IMG/VR virus record: IMGVR_UViG_3300031974_002957
Span: 1 to 56,709 of that record
DNA: 56,709 nt
Reading direction: 5' to 3' (one strand)
Origin: a virus
A model generated the notes under the pieces. That model was not told the origin of the DNA. It saw nothing but the letters and a program-made list of their open reading frames with translations, and ran no database searches. Within the stretch, counting starts at the first letter, position 1. Each line of letters opens with the position of its first letter. The translations under genes and the position numbers were made by a program. Positions 2,150-46,782 of the stretch are shown here, piece after piece.

Positions 2150-3661
2150 ATGAGTGATTATGGCAGTGCTGCTGATCAAGCAGAAAAGCAGCTTCGAAAT
2201 ATTTCTAAAACCATGTGTTACGCAAAGTGGGCGCAGGTATCCATGCACCTTACTAACGGACAAACACATAGCTGCTATCACCCCCCTACACATAAAATAG
2301 ATGTCTTAGAAATACAAGACAATCCTTCAGCTCTACACAATACAAGACAGAAAAAAGAAGAACGTAAAATGATGCTGGAAGGTAAAAGGCCAGCTGGTTG
2401 TTCTTATTGTTGGAAAATTGAGGATGTTGGTGGAAGAAGTGATCGTATTTACCGTAGTGGAGAATACTGGGCTCAAAATGCCAGAAAAGATATAATTGAA
2501 ACACTAGACGTTGGTAATATCAATCCACGCTATGTTGAAGTTAACTTTAACCAAGCATGCAACTTTAAATGTTCTTATTGTTCCCCTCATCTGTCTAATA
2601 CATGGGAAAGAGAAATTAAAAAGGATGGTCCTTACAACATAATTGGACAAGACGGGCATCCTACTAAACACAATGATATTGCTCATTTAGAAAAAATAGA
2701 TTTAATGCCAATTAAAGTTGCACAGGACGAAAATCCTTATGTAACTGCTTTTTGGAAATGGTGGCCAGAGTTATACAAGACACTAGAAGTTTTTCGTATG
2801 ACGGGAGGCGAGCCATTAATGGATAGTAACACTTACAAGGTATTGGATTACATATATGAAAATCCAAATGCTTGGTTGGAAGTTAGTGTTACTAGTAATA
2901 TGTGTCCTGATAAACCTAAGTTAATGGACATGTTTGTTGAGAAACTTCAAAAACTAGAAGAGATACAAATTTGGCAAAGCGAGAGATTCAATCCTGGATC
3001 TGGCAATCACTGGTATGTAAATATGGCAGTGAAAAACTTTGCAGTGTTTGTAAGTTTAGATGGAGCAGGAAAACAAGCAGAATACATTAGAAATGGTTTA
3101 AATTATGACACATTACAAACAAATGTTGAACGTATTTTAGGGGATACATGTAATACAACAATTACATTTATTAATACATTTAATAGTTTAAGTTTAACAA
3201 GTTTTAAAGAATTCTTGGAGTATATTTTAGAATTACGACACGAATATTCAAGACAAAACCAGGGTGTTAAAAAGATACCCATCTACGATCCTTATAACAC
3301 CCACCCGGACTTTGAAGTGCACCCAAGACAACGTATTTGGTTTGATGTTCCTCTTTTAAGGAATCCAGAATGGCAATGTATTAATACTTTGCCGGAAGAG
3401 TTTGAAAAATACTTAGAAGAAGCAATTGAATTTATGGAACACAATTCTAATGTAGATGATTTTGTAGGTTTTTATGACTTTGAGATTGCTAAAGTTAAAC
3501 GCAACCTAGAATGGATGCGAGAGAGAAATATGCCTAGAGAAAAACTTGACATCGCTAGAAAAAACTTTGTTAAGTTTTTTAAACAACACGATGCAAGAAG
3601 GGGGACTGACTTTTTGGATACGTTCCCCGAGTTTACAAGTTTTTGGAGGAAATGGGAGTGA
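2150..3661 (+). CDS. Radical SAM enzyme with accessory Cys motifs (twitch/SPASM type)
   Basis: A 503-residue protein with the canonical radical SAM cluster motif CNFKCSYC (Cys137, Cys141, Cys144). TGGEPLM follows, the GGE motif that binds the SAM amino group. Additional cysteines lie before the core (SCYHPP; GCSYCW) and could bind an auxiliary iron-sulfur cluster, as in twitch or SPASM-type proteins. Radical SAM enzymes cleave SAM to a 5'-deoxyadenosyl radical and modify peptides, nucleotides, sugars or lipids. The gene overlaps the downstream carbamoyltransferase by 4 nt (GTGA), so the two products probably act in one pathway. The class assignment is firm; the substrate is unknown. Confidence 0.88.
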   Translation: MSDYGSAADQAEKQLRNISKTMCYAKWAQVSMHLTNGQTHSCYHPPTHKIDVLEIQDNPSALHNTRQKKEERKMMLEGKRPAGCSYCWKIEDVGGRSDRIYRSGEYWAQNARKDIIETLDVGNINPRYVEVNFNQACNFKCSYCSPHLSNTWEREIKKDGPYNIIGQDGHPTKHNDIAHLEKIDLMPIKVAQDENPYVTAFWKWWPELYKTLEVFRMTGGEPLMDSNTYKVLDYIYENPNAWLEVSVTSNMCPDKPKLMDMFVEKLQKLEEIQIWQSERFNPGSGNHWYVNMAVKNFAVFVSLDGAGKQAEYIRNGLNYDTLQTNVERILGDTCNTTITFINTFNSLSLTSFKEFLEYILELRHEYSRQNQGVKKIPIYDPYNTHPDFEVHPRQRIWFDVPLLRNPEWQCINTLPEEFEKYLEEAIEFMEHNSNVDDFVGFYDFEIAKVKRNLEWMRERNMPREKLDIARKNFVKFFKQHDARRGTDFLDTFPEFTSFWRKWE

Positions 3662-7714: not shown

Positions 7715-8705
7715 AGCATACGACTTTGACATTTACTCTGATGAACACATCGAGGATTTGGGCAGACTAGTAGCAAACAAAGCAGTCGTCTTAGTTAAAC
7801 AAAAATTAAATCAAAAAAGAACCTGGGAAGTCCAAAATAGCTGGGGCGAAGGTGCACAGTCTATTGTTAACCGAGCAGTATCTCTTAGCAACATGGGTAA
7901 ACATTGGGCTAGTTTACGACTAGATATCTTCAATGTTTCAAGCGAGATTGAACCCGAGTATCGGGATACCATGAATGTTGTTACATATCAGTTAGGTAAA
8001 AAAGGACGACCAAAAGGTTTGTTTGCCAATGGTGCATTAGGATGGCATAGTGATCAGGTTGCAGTTGATGACGGGGCTAGAGTTATTGGTTTAGTCTCTG
8101 TTGAACATTCTGAAAATTCACAAACCTGTTTCTTGTGTACTGCTGAGGCTTACGATAAACTGAGCCAAGAAGATAGGACTATGGTAGATGAACTGCAAAG
8201 TGTTTACAAGTGGAATAAGATTAACTTCACTGAAGATTTGATTGACACTCAGAAAGCACTGGTACGTTATAATCAGGTTCCTATTGATGGTATGTCTTGT
8301 AAGTTACAACAAGAAACATCGGGTGGTGTTAAGGGTATACACTTTCCAGGCTCGTTGTTCTCTCACTTCGAGGGTATGACAGAGTATGACAGTTTGAAGT
8401 TTAAAGAGCATCTTTGGGAACAAATAAACAAACCAGAATACATATACGAACATAATTGGCAAGACGGCCAGGTTGTGTATATGGATCAAAATATCACATT
8501 ACACGCACGCCCAACAAATATACAACATGGAAACATGAGAAAGATGTGGCGCAGTGTATCTTACATGAATAAATTGTATCCTAATCATGGGTATTGGGAT
8601 AAGTTTACAGTTAACGGAGTAGAAATGGATGGAAATACTTTTTTACGCCTAGTAGACGAACAACGAAAAGCAGACTTTGAGCAAGGCAAAAAAATTGCCA
8701 TTTAA
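7683..8705 (+). CDS. TauD/TfdA-like Fe(II)/2-oxoglutarate dioxygenase
   Basis: A 340-residue protein with a complete 2-oxoglutarate dioxygenase triad. The HxD motif is in WHSDQ (His122, Asp124), the distal His in LHARPT (His274), and an Arg in KMWRSVSY (Arg290) fits the 2-oxoglutarate carboxylate. The fold and WHSDQ context resemble TauD/TfdA enzymes, which hydroxylate small molecules such as taurine. In a phage it could act on a metabolite, a nucleotide or a glycan precursor. I chose ATG 7683; an in-frame ATG at 7665 lies deeper in the upstream gene. It is followed by the tmRNA promoter. Confidence 0.82.
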   Translation: MKTKSLNGATEAYDFDIYSDEHIEDLGRLVANKAVVLVKQKLNQKRTWEVQNSWGEGAQSIVNRAVSLSNMGKHWASLRLDIFNVSSEIEPEYRDTMNVVTYQLGKKGRPKGLFANGALGWHSDQVAVDDGARVIGLVSVEHSENSQTCFLCTAEAYDKLSQEDRTMVDELQSVYKWNKINFTEDLIDTQKALVRYNQVPIDGMSCKLQQETSGGVKGIHFPGSLFSHFEGMTEYDSLKFKEHLWEQINKPEYIYEHNWQDGQVVYMDQNITLHARPTNIQHGNMRKMWRSVSYMNKLYPNHGYWDKFTVNGVEMDGNTFLRLVDEQRKADFEQGKKIAI

Positions 8706-8708
8706 TGC

Positions 8709-8742
8709 TTGACAAAATTAACAAAAGGTGTTATTATAAATA
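8709..8742 (+). promoter_or_regulatory. Composite promoter of the tmRNA gene
   Basis: TTGACA (8709-8714), a 17-nt spacer and TATTAT (8732-8737) form a sigma-70 promoter. An exact late-type TATAAATA overlaps it at 8735-8742. The tmRNA could therefore be made early by host polymerase and late by the gp33-assisted phage system. Both motifs are seen directly; dual use is inferred. Confidence 0.75.
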
Positions 8743-8810
8743 CCTTGTTCGATGATAGGAACTGAAAGGTTACTTGGACGCGGGTGCGATTCCCGCCACC
8801 TCCACCAGAT

Positions 8811-8996
8811 ATGTATTTGTGTATTTGCAACAACGTAAAAGAAGGCGATACTGATAGGTATCATTTAATTGGTACCAATTGTGGTAAGTGCATATCTGAT
8901 GGGGGTGAACAGGTTCGACAGGTGATTAGTAGGGGACAGGAGAACCAGTGCGGAAGCTACTGTGAATGCAACAAAAACTATAAATGCCAACGATGA
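8811..8996 (+). CDS. Candidate Bfd-like [2Fe-2S] protein nested in the tmRNA gene
   Basis: An ORF of 61 codons starts inside the tmRNA intervening segment and runs into the coding piece. It begins MYLCICNNV and continues to IGTNCGKCI, giving Cys4-x-Cys6 and Cys24-x2-Cys27. Bacterioferritin-associated ferredoxin (Bfd) begins MYVCLCN and has a GNQCGKC motif that binds the same cluster, though with a longer middle. After residue 30 the frame enters conserved tmRNA sequence and the similarity fades. No Shine-Dalgarno site precedes the ATG. Cleavage after the tmRNA CCA would leave the AUG only 3 nt from a new 5' end. It could be a real overlapping gene, a remnant captured in the spacer, or chance. 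Confidence 0.4.
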   Translation: MYLCICNNVKEGDTDRYHLIGTNCGKCISDGGEQVRQVISRGQENQCGSYCECNKNYKCQR

Positions 8997-9027
8997 GGTA
9001 TTTGCTCTAGCAGCTTAAGCTAGACGG

Positions 9028-9060
9028 GGTATGGGTTCCACCTTGTAATCAAACGGACCC
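9028..9060 (+). repeat. Structured 33-nt repeat, copy 1
   Basis: This begins GGTATGGGTTCCACCTTG and is 30/33 identical to 9335-9367. GGGTTC (9033-9038) pairs with GGACCC (9055-9060), and an inner TTG/CAA stem is possible. It lies just after the tmRNA tag hairpin and may be the 3' end of the coding piece. No T-run follows; an AC-rich stretch does. Confidence 0.7.
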
Positions 9061-9092
9061 AACACACACAACACACACAAAAGGAGATAAAT

Positions 9093-9323
9093 ATGTCTAA
9101 TCCATATGAACTAAGATTTTCCATGCTCATGGAAGCCAAACAGATGCTCATAGAAGAGTATCATGCAAAGAGGGAAGAACTTACAGATAGATACCATGCA
9201 TTGAAAGATGCAGGAGAATCTGTTGAGTTTCCTGACTTACCTAAGTATCCTTGCTTTGAGGATATTCAGGCATTGTGCAATAAAATGAATTCCTTTGTCA
9301 GTAATACCGGAGGTAAGTACTAA
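9093..9323 (+). CDS. Hypothetical protein, 76 aa
   Basis: It has a strong ribosome binding site (AAGGAG at 9081-9086) 6 nt before the ATG. The protein is helical and Met/Glu-rich (MLMEAKQMLIEEYHAKREEL), with a Pro/Tyr-rich hinge (FPDLPKYPCF) and a final helix. Its general form matches small conserved proteins of marine T4-like phages, but I know no function. It lies between two copies of a 33-nt structured repeat, so its transcript may be bounded by them. Confidence 0.75.
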   Translation: MSNPYELRFSMLMEAKQMLIEEYHAKREELTDRYHALKDAGESVEFPDLPKYPCFEDIQALCNKMNSFVSNTGGKY

Positions 9324-9334
9324 GTAATTCTAAA

Positions 9335-9372
9335 GGTATGGGTTCCACCTTGTTACCAAACGGGCCCTTTTC
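9335..9372 (+). terminator. Repeat copy 2, likely intrinsic terminator
   Basis: The second copy of the 33-nt repeat (9335-9367). GGGTTC (9340-9345) pairs with GGGCCC (9362-9367), with an inner TTG/CAA stem, and TTTTCT follows. The T-run makes it a plausible terminator for the tmRNA and 76-aa unit. Confidence 0.6.
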
Positions 9373-9388
9373 TAATAGGAGTAAAACT

Positions 9389-9946
9389 ATGCGTAATGTA
9401 ATTACATCGTTATGCGGAATAATAATCCTGGTTGGTTGTAACGCTACAGAGCCTGAACCACCACCCGTTGAAAACATCGATCCAGCCCCCGAGATCGATG
9501 CATCAGAATTTCAAGACCCACACCAAGTAGCATGTATTGCTAAAAACATTTATTTTGAAGCTAAAGGCGAGCCTGTAGAAGGACAAATTGCTGTAGCTCA
9601 TGTTGTTATAAATCGCGCAAACTCATCTATCTATCCAGATACACCATGTGAGGTTGTGTACCAAGCACGTTTAAGTAAGTGGGGCTTACAACGCGGCAAA
9701 ATCATTCCTTTACGAAACCAATGTCAATTTTCTTGGTATTGTGATGGTAAATCTGACGTTATTGGAGATTGGAAACGATACAGAGAGTTTGTTCGTATTG
9801 CTCATGACGCAATGAGTGGGGAAATACCAGACAATACAAATGGAGCGCTATGGTATCATGCTAACTATGTTAATCCATACTGGAATCGTAATATGCAGTT
9901 AGTAGCATATCACGGAGCTCATAAATTTTATGTGAAAGACTATTGA
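9389..9946 (+). CDS. SleB-like cell wall hydrolase lipoprotein
   Basis: A 185-residue protein with a lipoprotein signal: a short hydrophobic helix ending in the lipobox LVGC (Cys17). It is followed by a Glu/Pro-rich linker and a SleB/CwlJ-type hydrolase domain: ACIAKNIYFEAKGEP with the likely catalytic Glu, AVAHVVINR, CQFSWYC and ALWYHANYV. SleB enzymes cut the glycan strand of peptidoglycan. Anchored in a membrane, it could act in lysis or modify the wall of the infected cell. I chose ATG 9389, which follows AGGAG; an earlier ATG at 9338 lies inside the terminator repeat. Its stop overlaps the next promoter. Confidence 0.85.
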   Translation: MRNVITSLCGIIILVGCNATEPEPPPVENIDPAPEIDASEFQDPHQVACIAKNIYFEAKGEPVEGQIAVAHVVINRANSSIYPDTPCEVVYQARLSKWGLQRGKIIPLRNQCQFSWYCDGKSDVIGDWKRYREFVRIAHDAMSGEIPDNTNGALWYHANYVNPYWNRNMQLVAYHGAHKFYVKDY

Positions 9947-12860: not shown

Positions 12861-12937
12861 GCGCTCGTAGCTCAACTGGATAGAGCATCGGCCTTCTAAG
12901 CCGAGGGTTGCAGGTTCGAGTCCTGCCGGGCGCGCCA
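12861..12937 (+). tRNA. tRNA-Arg (anticodon TCT)
   Basis: A full cloverleaf is visible. Acceptor GCGCTCG pairs with CGGGCGC (one wobble). The D-arm is GCTC/GAGC. The anticodon stem TCGGC/GCCGA encloses loop CTTCTAA, giving anticodon TCT at 12895-12897. The T-arm is GCAGG/CCTGC with loop TTCGAGT. CCA is encoded. It reads AGA, a common Arg codon in this AT-rich genome. Confidence 0.96.
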
Positions 12938-12994: not shown

Positions 12995-13080
12995 GCCCGT
13001 GTGGTGGAATAGGTAGACACAAGAGACTTAAAATCTCTCGATCATTGATCGTGCCAGTTCGAGTCTGGCCACGGGCACCA
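12995..13080 (+). tRNA. tRNA-Leu (anticodon TAA)
   Basis: A class II tRNA. Acceptor GCCCGTG pairs with CACGGGC. The anticodon stem AGAGA/TCTCT encloses loop CTTAAAA with anticodon TAA. A long variable arm (CGATCATTGATCG) is present, as are a normal T-arm and an encoded CCA. It reads TTA, a favoured Leu codon here. Confidence 0.96.
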
Positions 13081-46039: not shown

Positions 46040-46782
46040 AATTTTAGTAAACTCTCATCTTTTAAATCTTCAAACTTTACTTGTTTTTTTGCTTTAGGAT
46101 CTGGTGTATTGTCTGTATTAAATAAACAGAATTTTGCATCGGGACGAAACTTATATTGTTCAATATCATCTGGGAACGACATTCCCCTATTGTAACTGTA
46201 TACCCATTCATGTGGAATGTTTTTCCAAAAGTCTCTATATCTCCAATAATGATAATTGTCTGAGCCTTTATAGAATGTAGTAAACACCATACGATCATTA
46301 ATGAGAACATCATGATAAATGTGTTTACATTGTTCACCATTCCAACACATTACACTAGAGTTAAAAAACGTGCCTCTCATATCAATAAAAAGCCTGTCGT
46401 GTTTTTGTTTTGGATCCTGCCAATTTGTATGAACAATTCTAGGTTTATTAGCTAGTACATCTAAATCATTTATCTTGTTCTGTATAACAACATCTAAATC
46501 CAAATAACACCATTTACCAGGATAGTGAAGCCACTCGTATGAATTAAATACGAGAAACTTTGCCCTATCCCAGCAATAGTTTTCTTTATTGAACCAATAT
46601 TTTGGATGGAGTATGCCGTCATCTGGAATATACGCACTATCGCATATTAATCCATCGGGCTCTTCTGTATAGCATGTAAAGGTAAAATCTCTAGTATAGT
46701 TCTTTTTAACCATTTTGTAGAGATTGTTTACATGCTCTGCAGAGTACTTTGTACCCCATTTTATACAGACAAAATTCATCAT
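46027..46782 (-). CDS. Glycosyltransferase paralogue C
   Basis: A 251-residue protein with MNFVCIKWGTKYSAEHVNNL, DxD in CYLDLDVVIQNKIND, HYWRYRDFWKNIPHEW and YSYNRGMSFPDD. It is most similar to paralogue B, including an aligned HPKYWF motif, so the two probably arose by tandem duplication. Overlap with B is 13 nt. The second Met at 46779 is an equally good start. Confidence 0.8.
   Translation of the reverse strand: MMNFVCIKWGTKYSAEHVNNLYKMVKKNYTRDFTFTCYTEEPDGLICDSAYIPDDGILHPKYWFNKENYCWDRAKFLVFNSYEWLHYPGKWCYLDLDVVIQNKINDLDVLANKPRIVHTNWQDPKQKHDRLFIDMRGTFFNSSVMCWNGEQCKHIYHDVLINDRMVFTTFYKGSDNYHYWRYRDFWKNIPHEWVYSYNRGMSFPDDIEQYKFRPDAKFCLFNTDNTPDPKAKKQVKFEDLKDESLLKLWRG

Follow-up and report, generated by a model that had tools for sequence, protein, structure and literature searches.

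Does a phage-encoded permuted tmRNA gene yield a tmRNA alone, or do the segment cut out of it and the DNA at its 3' end hold protein genes as well? We asked this of an IMG/VR record of 56,709 bases, the whole of which is called the window here. The phage was considered T4-like because the window contains gp32, gp33, gp59, PhoH, exonuclease, and baseplate genes. Among the best 30 of 2,418 gp32 matches, the best-covering named relatives were Pelagibacter phage HTVC008M, cyanophages, and methylophage Melnitz, with ~55–58% protein identity. The analysis suggested that the locus is probably a working permuted tmRNA gene that doubles as a compact gene compartment. The promoter-like site, the two tmRNA pieces, the frame under selection, the tag, the hairpin-flanked cassette, and the endolysin gene are present in the sequence itself (Table 1).

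The initial annotation had described a circularly permuted tmRNA, with the acceptor piece upstream of the coding piece, and had proposed covariance models as a check. With cmscan, RF04321 (tmRNA_permuted) matched 8747–9018 at 120.4 bits (gathering score 47, E 5e-23) and was covered from position 1 to 213 of its 213 positions. RF01850 (beta_tmRNA) matched 8695–9068 at 97.4 bits (gathering score 84). ARAGORN agreed, reporting a permuted tmRNA at 8715–9109 with the tag ANDEVFALAA, the same tag as annotated. Its end at 9109 is an overshoot into the next gene; the 3' end of the tmRNA likely lies just past the terminal hairpin. Judged by these matches, 8747–9062 is a circularly permuted tmRNA gene. 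The subtype had to be corrected: alpha_tmRNA (RF01849) had been expected, and Rfam kept beta for the window and alpha as the best for relative L207. The cut sites predicted near 8807/8808 and 8900/8901 agreed with the encoded CCA (8805–8807), which closes the 3' acceptor strand, and with the GGGGGTG that opens the coding piece.

Table 1. Features of the tmRNA locus in the window.
Feature	Coordinates	Strand	Basis
Composite promoter: TTGACA / TATTAT overlapping T4-late-type box TATAAATA	8709–8742	+	Sequence; 16/133 tmRNAs
tmRNA acceptor piece (3' half of tRNA-like domain, T-arm, encoded CCA), first in precursor	8747–8807	+	RF04321 alignment start 8747
Intervening segment, 93 nt	8808–8900	+	Between CCA and GGGGGTG start; fold
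Nested Bfd-like ORF, 30 codons (MYLCICNNV...GTNCGKCISD)	8811–8900	+	Frame-specific pN/pS; homologs elsewhere
tmRNA coding piece (5' acceptor strand, D-loop region, tag, terminal hairpin)	8901–9062	+	RF04321/RF01850; hairpin conservation; 3' end inferred
Tag frame ANDEVFALAA + stop	8986–9018	+	ARAGORN; tag 8986–9015, stop 9016–9018
Terminal hairpin of tmRNA, direct-repeat copy 1	9028–9060	+	Repeat finder; covariation
CA-rich leader and Shine-Dalgarno (AAGGAG) of small gene	9061–9086	+	Sequence
tmRNA-linked small protein gene, 76 aa (MSNPYELRF...)	9093–9323	+	Homolog linkage; AlphaFold2 two-helix hairpin
Terminal hairpin copy 2	9335–9367	+	91% identical to copy 1; repeat finder
Endolysin (Cell Wall Hydrolase PF07486), co-directional neighbour	9389–9946	+	Pfam E 4e-26

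Direct reading of the acceptor stem (GGGGGTG/CACCTCC) gave seven pairs, including the G3-U70 pair already annotated. Together with discriminator A (A73) and the CCA, the alanine identity elements are present, and charging with alanine is predicted. The tag frame starts with an alanine resume codon and ends with a degradation-type tail and a stop; ALAA ends have a role in degradation. In the predicted fold, a GATATGTA/TGCATATC helix closes the intervening segment and prolongs the acceptor stem. For the terminal hairpin, 26 hand-picked sequences of 53 distinct first-copy hairpins were aligned. One pair covaried in this alignment, with both sides changed in 9 cells (0 of 500 shuffles), and another was unpaired in 6 of the 26. 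The co-folding energy of the two pieces was slightly better than that of shuffles (z −1.3; 21 of 200 shuffles were as good), and several pairs outside the acceptor and T stems were flagged as non-standard in the model alignment. The tmRNA case therefore rests on covariance models and conservation, not on free energy. The second hairpin was also considered as a riboswitch like that of Melnitz; this was set aside, as Rfam gave no riboswitch match in the window at gathering scores.

A motif search over 314 loci yielded 137 distinct permuted tmRNAs. Their T-loops varied: position 55 was G in 119 of the 137 and T in 18, whereas the RF04321 consensus has GGGUUCGAUUCCC, and GGCAGTA, far from the usual T-loop, was found in 29. 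The T-loop of the window lies at 8785–8791. It is possible, as speculation, that such variants escape T-loop modification or recognition.

The composite early/late promoter claimed in the annotation was also found. TTGACA (8709–8714) and TATTAT (8732–8737) are separated by a 17-nt spacer, and TATAAATA lies at 8735–8742. The survey covered 133 distinct tmRNAs for which 260 nt upstream could be read. The composite of a sigma70 promoter and TATAAATA was present before 16 of these, that of the window being one (shuffled 0.0), and the TATAAATA box before 82 (shuffled 3.6).

The intervening segment looks protein-coding from its pattern of substitutions. Translated from the ATG at 8811 to the predicted RNase P site at 8900/8901, it gives MYLCICNNVKEGDTDRYHLIGTNCGKCISD. 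No stop precedes this site, and the frame stays open to a TGA within the tag (61 codons). With five distinct intervening sequences pooled, pN/pS was 0.091 in this frame versus 2.48 and 1.08 in the other frames. The window and L283 differed at 10 places in the nested ORF, 7 synonymous and 3 nonsynonymous; this synonymous excess had a P of 0.00045 against random placement, stops being counted as failures. Compared with L193, 6 of 10 differences were synonymous. The ORFs of the window and L342 were 82% identical, versus 66% and 63% for the flanking tmRNA pieces. We looked for a Shine-Dalgarno sequence for the nested ORF of the window and found none. Its ATG lies 3 nt past the CCA and is paired in the closing helix of the predicted precursor fold, so that it could be translated only from the excised segment or once the helix has opened.

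Relatives of the nested peptide were found in several gene settings. A scan of viral contigs with the peptide gave 19 loci. It lay inside a tmRNA intervening segment in 11 of them (L332–L342, six of which are the same contigs as L280–L285). In five others (L343–L347), the peptide (85% over 27 aa) formed the N-terminal end of a long open frame. Each of these frames ran off the end of the sequence stretch, after at least 527 codons in L343–L346 and 153 in L347. The first 75 residues of one such frame matched UvsW_N at E 3e-05 and 24.9 bits, with a cut-off of 25.3. In L348, the peptide was encoded ~0.5 kb upstream of a tmRNA, and in L349 and L350 a free-standing version lay directly upstream of one, with a Shine-Dalgarno sequence by eye. 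Inspection of L318–L329 and L331 by eye showed a separate Bfd-like ORF with UvsW-like sequence close behind.

Cysteines C4, C6, C24, and C27 (CxC + CxxC) were present in all five distinct nested sequences, a pattern that suggests a Bfd-type iron-sulphur peptide. The peptide resembles bacterioferritin-associated ferredoxin (Bfd; Fer2_BFD, PF04324) in having CxC near the start and CGKC later, and differs in its shorter spacing, its 30 codons, and its place inside a tmRNA gene. Pfam gave no Fer2_BFD match for the window peptide at the cut-off of 26 bits. Three of four homologs matched at 19.2, 18.7, and 11.7 bits, below the cut-off, and the fourth gave none; two homologs reached E 0.002, still under the cut-off. 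As these matches stay below it, the peptide is named only Bfd-like. Its four best sequence matches in PDB were all Bfd, and were weak (E 0.23–0.33). The intervening segment of L296 (RF04321 match, 105.2 bits) contained a second, divergent Bfd-like ORF, for which no Bfd match was found in PDB or Pfam. When this ORF served as query, 14 viral loci with a relative turned up, none of which gave an Rfam tmRNA match in the 1.7–3.1 kb examined.

Intervening segments of the 137 permuted tmRNAs were shorter than 60 nt in 39, 60–89 nt in 34, and at least 90 nt in 64. An ORF was counted when it started with ATG and filled at least 80% of the remaining segment, for which segments under 60 nt were too short. 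The loci are mutually related and were gathered with few queries, so the counts speak for existence and breadth, not for natural frequency: ORFs were found in 47 of the 64 longest segments (shuffled 5.9), 31 of the 64 had an ORF with a Shine-Dalgarno sequence (shuffled 0.7), 17 of the 64 had no such ORF, and neither did 26 of the 34 segments of 60–89 nt. After removal of 11 segments gathered by ORF query, 37 of 53 had an ORF, 21 with a Shine-Dalgarno sequence. The ORFs were of various kinds, namely transmembrane-type, basic (52–57 aa), Melnitz-type, and Bfd-like. A 30-aa transmembrane-type family showed a pN/pS of 0.33 in frame versus 1.05 and 1.66 (12 distinct sequences). The ORF of the cultured phage Melnitz (MFKWLSKTR...; L278:16097–16219, equal to 46096–46218 of the Melnitz record) lies inside ssrA with a Shine-Dalgarno sequence. 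It is unrelated to that of the window, is unannotated, and is unmentioned in the accessible part of PMC9004378. Relatives of it were found in 18 viral contigs, with the likeness limited to about the first 35 codons in 5 of them.

Segments of the window class measure exactly 31 codons; their AUG follows the CCA by 3 nt, and the RNase P site is reached before any stop. Processing would therefore set free a mini-message that has no stop and finishes with a whole codon. Such a message might be a deliberate client of the tmRNA from which it is cut. If so, trans-translation would be required to free the ribosomes on it, the phage tag would be added to the peptide, and the message would sense from within the gene how much tmRNA is available. 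E. coli arfA, likewise read from a message without a stop (PMC10107115, in the part available), would be a parallel. We regard this as improbable. A stop inside the segment was present in 29 of the 47 nested ORFs, which argues against the client reading and led us to reject a stop-less message as a general rule. Thirteen of the 18 stop-less ORFs ended on a codon boundary, nine of these 13 being Melnitz and its relatives. Because TGAT precedes the coding piece in 97 of the 137 tmRNAs, an in-frame ending is easily reached by chance, which also weighs against it.

Behind the tmRNA lies a small gene flanked by two copies of the terminal hairpin, and the endolysin gene follows. The endolysin N terminus is lipoprotein-like, with a lipobox-like LVGC by eye, and similar CA-rich leaders were seen by eye upstream of the small-gene homologs inspected. 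AlphaFold2 predicted a two-helix hairpin for the small protein (mean pLDDT 87, pTM 0.65). It had no PDB fold match at E 0.001 or better and no Pfam match; in PHROG, the best E was 0.05 for the window protein and none was better than 0.02 among 34 members. A viral scan with the small gene kept 80 of 84 related loci, of which four were short of upstream sequence, leaving 76 testable. A permuted tmRNA lay directly upstream in 60 of the 76 (42 by ARAGORN and 18, preselected for tmRNA-like sequence, by cmscan), a count favoured by the use of the window gene as query and by many near-duplicates (50 distinct proteins, one added locus included). The remaining 16 gave no cmscan tmRNA match. The linkage held down to 31–36% protein identity. 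In three named phages with a homolog, no tmRNA was annotated within 2.5 kb.

Closely related contigs with and without the small gene were compared. Six contigs with a 91% identical dioxygenase had neither the small gene nor the second hairpin copy. All eight filled/empty comparisons (window/L193, L201/L011, L210/L011, L010/L006, L010/L003, L019/L026, L217/L026, and L035/L026) broke at the hairpin. The flanks of the window (filled) and L193 (empty) were 89% and 87% identical; L201 and L011 were 98–99% identical, with a further difference of ~0.45 kb upstream. The second hairpin copy beat all 200 shuffles in 15 of 40 distinct loci with tmRNA and small gene; the other 25 were not above the null for the repeat, some having a shortened copy by eye. 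By inspection, the repeat copies in L218, L208, L263, and L259 resembled the hairpin of their own lineage. In the distant loci L263 and L259, the small gene is followed by a repeat of a terminal hairpin that is their own and quite unlike that of the window; the duplication is thus not confined to the lineage of the window. Lineages that copy their own hairpin would speak for repeated events. L338 combined a window-type nested peptide, a small-gene variant (MSNPFELRF...), and a second hairpin. From these comparisons, the small gene is a recurrent cassette at the tmRNA 3' end, repeatedly gained or lost, probably by recombination at the terminal hairpin. L038 has a tmRNA of a different type (tag AANDDYYEGLRLAA) and a window-like hairpin; the short ORF between the two (3288–3359, 23 protein letters) may resemble PqqA, the precursor of the cofactor PQQ.

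A host was sought by the tag. The first tag pattern gave no match over the genome collection. Across the 84,980-species collection, a single contig (L296, DQKQ01000288.1) carried exactly ANDEVFALAA. This contig carries a Flavobacteriales MAG label, has many small phage-like ORFs, an S21-like protein by eye, and a permuted tmRNA with the tag of the window. It looks phage-derived and is probably mis-binned, so the tag is no obvious copy from a host, and L296 was discarded as a pointer to the host. A distant DNA search with the tmRNA matched 57 phage and 3 plasmid records and gave no match in E. coli genomes. The matches spanned no more than 15% of the query and, among those listed (40 of the 57 for phages), fell on the T-arm and acceptor region. 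SmpB (PF01668) was found in none of 10 phage records, which may be incomplete, and in 10 of 14 control genomes. As these phage records gave no SmpB, host SmpB would be used.

Could the locus be an ordinary phage tmRNA, with a non-coding spacer whose open frame is due to chance or structure, and a small gene that is merely the next gene? The 39 segments under 60 nt and the 26 of 34 segments of 60–89 nt without an ORF fit a spacer, as do the paired ATG of the window ORF and its missing Shine-Dalgarno sequence. Frame-specific purifying selection on that ORF, homologs of its peptide in other gene settings, and the ORF excess over shuffles argue against it, and so does the linkage of the small gene to the tmRNA in 60 of 76 loci. 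We hold this explanation to be unlikely. The small-gene cassette might instead be a mini-element, selfish or mobile, whose target is the 3' end of the tmRNA and which has no functional tie to that RNA. Mobility would fit the direct repeats on either side, the close kinship of filled and empty sites, and repeat copies that match the hairpin of their own lineage in L218, L208, L263, and L259 (by inspection). It would also fit homologs in contigs without a tmRNA match, as well as those in named phages whose annotation shows no tmRNA within 2.5 kb. Against it, the protein gave no sign of a recombinase or nuclease: Pfam returned nothing, and the predicted fold is a plain two-helix hairpin that found no PDB match at E 0.001 or better. 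Its linkage to the tmRNA also persists to 31–36% identity. A mobile cassette appeared to us a tentative possibility, which we lean against, and is compatible with the rest of our explanation.

The tmRNA could also compete with host trans-translation by titrating SmpB instead of rescuing ribosomes, as proposed for the tag-less DS6A molecule. An inhibitory phage molecule with a tRNA-like part alone has precedent (accessible parts of PMC4131195 and PMC11915505), and no phage SmpB was matched in the 10 records. A decoy would have no need of the tag frame, alanine resume codon, and terminal hairpin, all intact in the window, and tag frames are present in the relatives as well. We consider such a decoy improbable. 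The rescue of stalled ribosomes by a phage RNA, with biasing of the tag, as suggested in the initial annotation, is plausible.

Based on these sequence features, a working tmRNA gene would act as follows. One precursor would be transcribed early from the sigma70 promoter and late from the T4-type late promoter. Host RNase P would cut at 8900/8901, and 3' processing would leave the CCA at 8807. The two pieces would anneal, receive alanine from host AlaRS, and, with host SmpB, rescue ribosomes stranded on broken messages during infection. Tagged products would go to proteolysis, with the tag recognised by host proteases. The excised 93-nt segment, or the unprocessed precursor, could serve as a mini-message for the small Bfd-like, iron-sulphur-type peptide, and the downstream genes would be read from the rest of the transcript. 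Translation of nested ORFs, if it occurs, would make a gene niche of the part that permuted tmRNA genes discard. One transcript would then give a structured two-piece RNA and, from the excised part, a protein message, coupling RNA processing to translation in an unusual way. This could explain why such phages keep a permuted tmRNA over a one-piece form. The small protein linked to the tmRNA is a candidate for a phage-encoded factor of trans-translation.

The duplicated end of the gene is a feature of ssrA genomic islands. Genes for ssrA serve such islands as integration sites (available parts of PMC4131195 and PMC11915505). Like the islands, the cassette is extra DNA at a tmRNA gene; unlike them, it repeats the coding piece's terminal hairpin, is ~0.3 kb long, and has a single ORF without an integrase match. 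An early phage list was given, and the DS6A molecule was described, in PMC4131195, and RF04321 and 79 phage tmRNAs in PMC11915505, as far as the available parts of both extend; the latter counts 11,946 permuted sequences in the tmRNA database. The window tmRNA resembles RF04321 and RF01850 (RF01849/RF01850 subtypes) in its whole-length match and differs in its T-loop, TGCGATT versus the RF04321 consensus UUCGAUU. For the RF04321 tmRNAs, the available part of PMC11915505 describes intervening sequences with a tRNA-Ala gene and a repetitive element and mentions no protein gene, whereas the segment of the window appears to be coding. In our search of the open-access literature, we saw no account of a protein gene within an intervening segment, nor of a 3' cassette. 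The selected nested gene and the recurrent 3'-end cassette thus appear to be new beyond the known permuted phage tmRNAs.

The window tmRNA alone is not new, because permuted tmRNAs in marine T4-like phages have been published (PMC9004378, available part). Of the 53 phage tmRNAs for which a two-piece form was suggested there, 50 were marine or aquatic. Melnitz (MZ577097) is, like the phage of the window, a T4-like marine myophage with a permuted ssrA. Its gene order, PhoH, exonuclease (PD-(D/E)XK), ssrA, gp33, gp59, and gp32, with other genes between, matches the place of the tmRNA in the window. Its tag is ANDNYVPVDYALAA, versus ANDEVFALAA, and its 3' domain was predicted to contain a glutamine riboswitch (PMC9004378, available part). 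In the window, tRNA-Arg(TCT) (12861–12937) and tRNA-Leu(TAA) (12995–13080) adjoin gp32, and Melnitz also has tRNA-Arg and tRNA-Leu genes.
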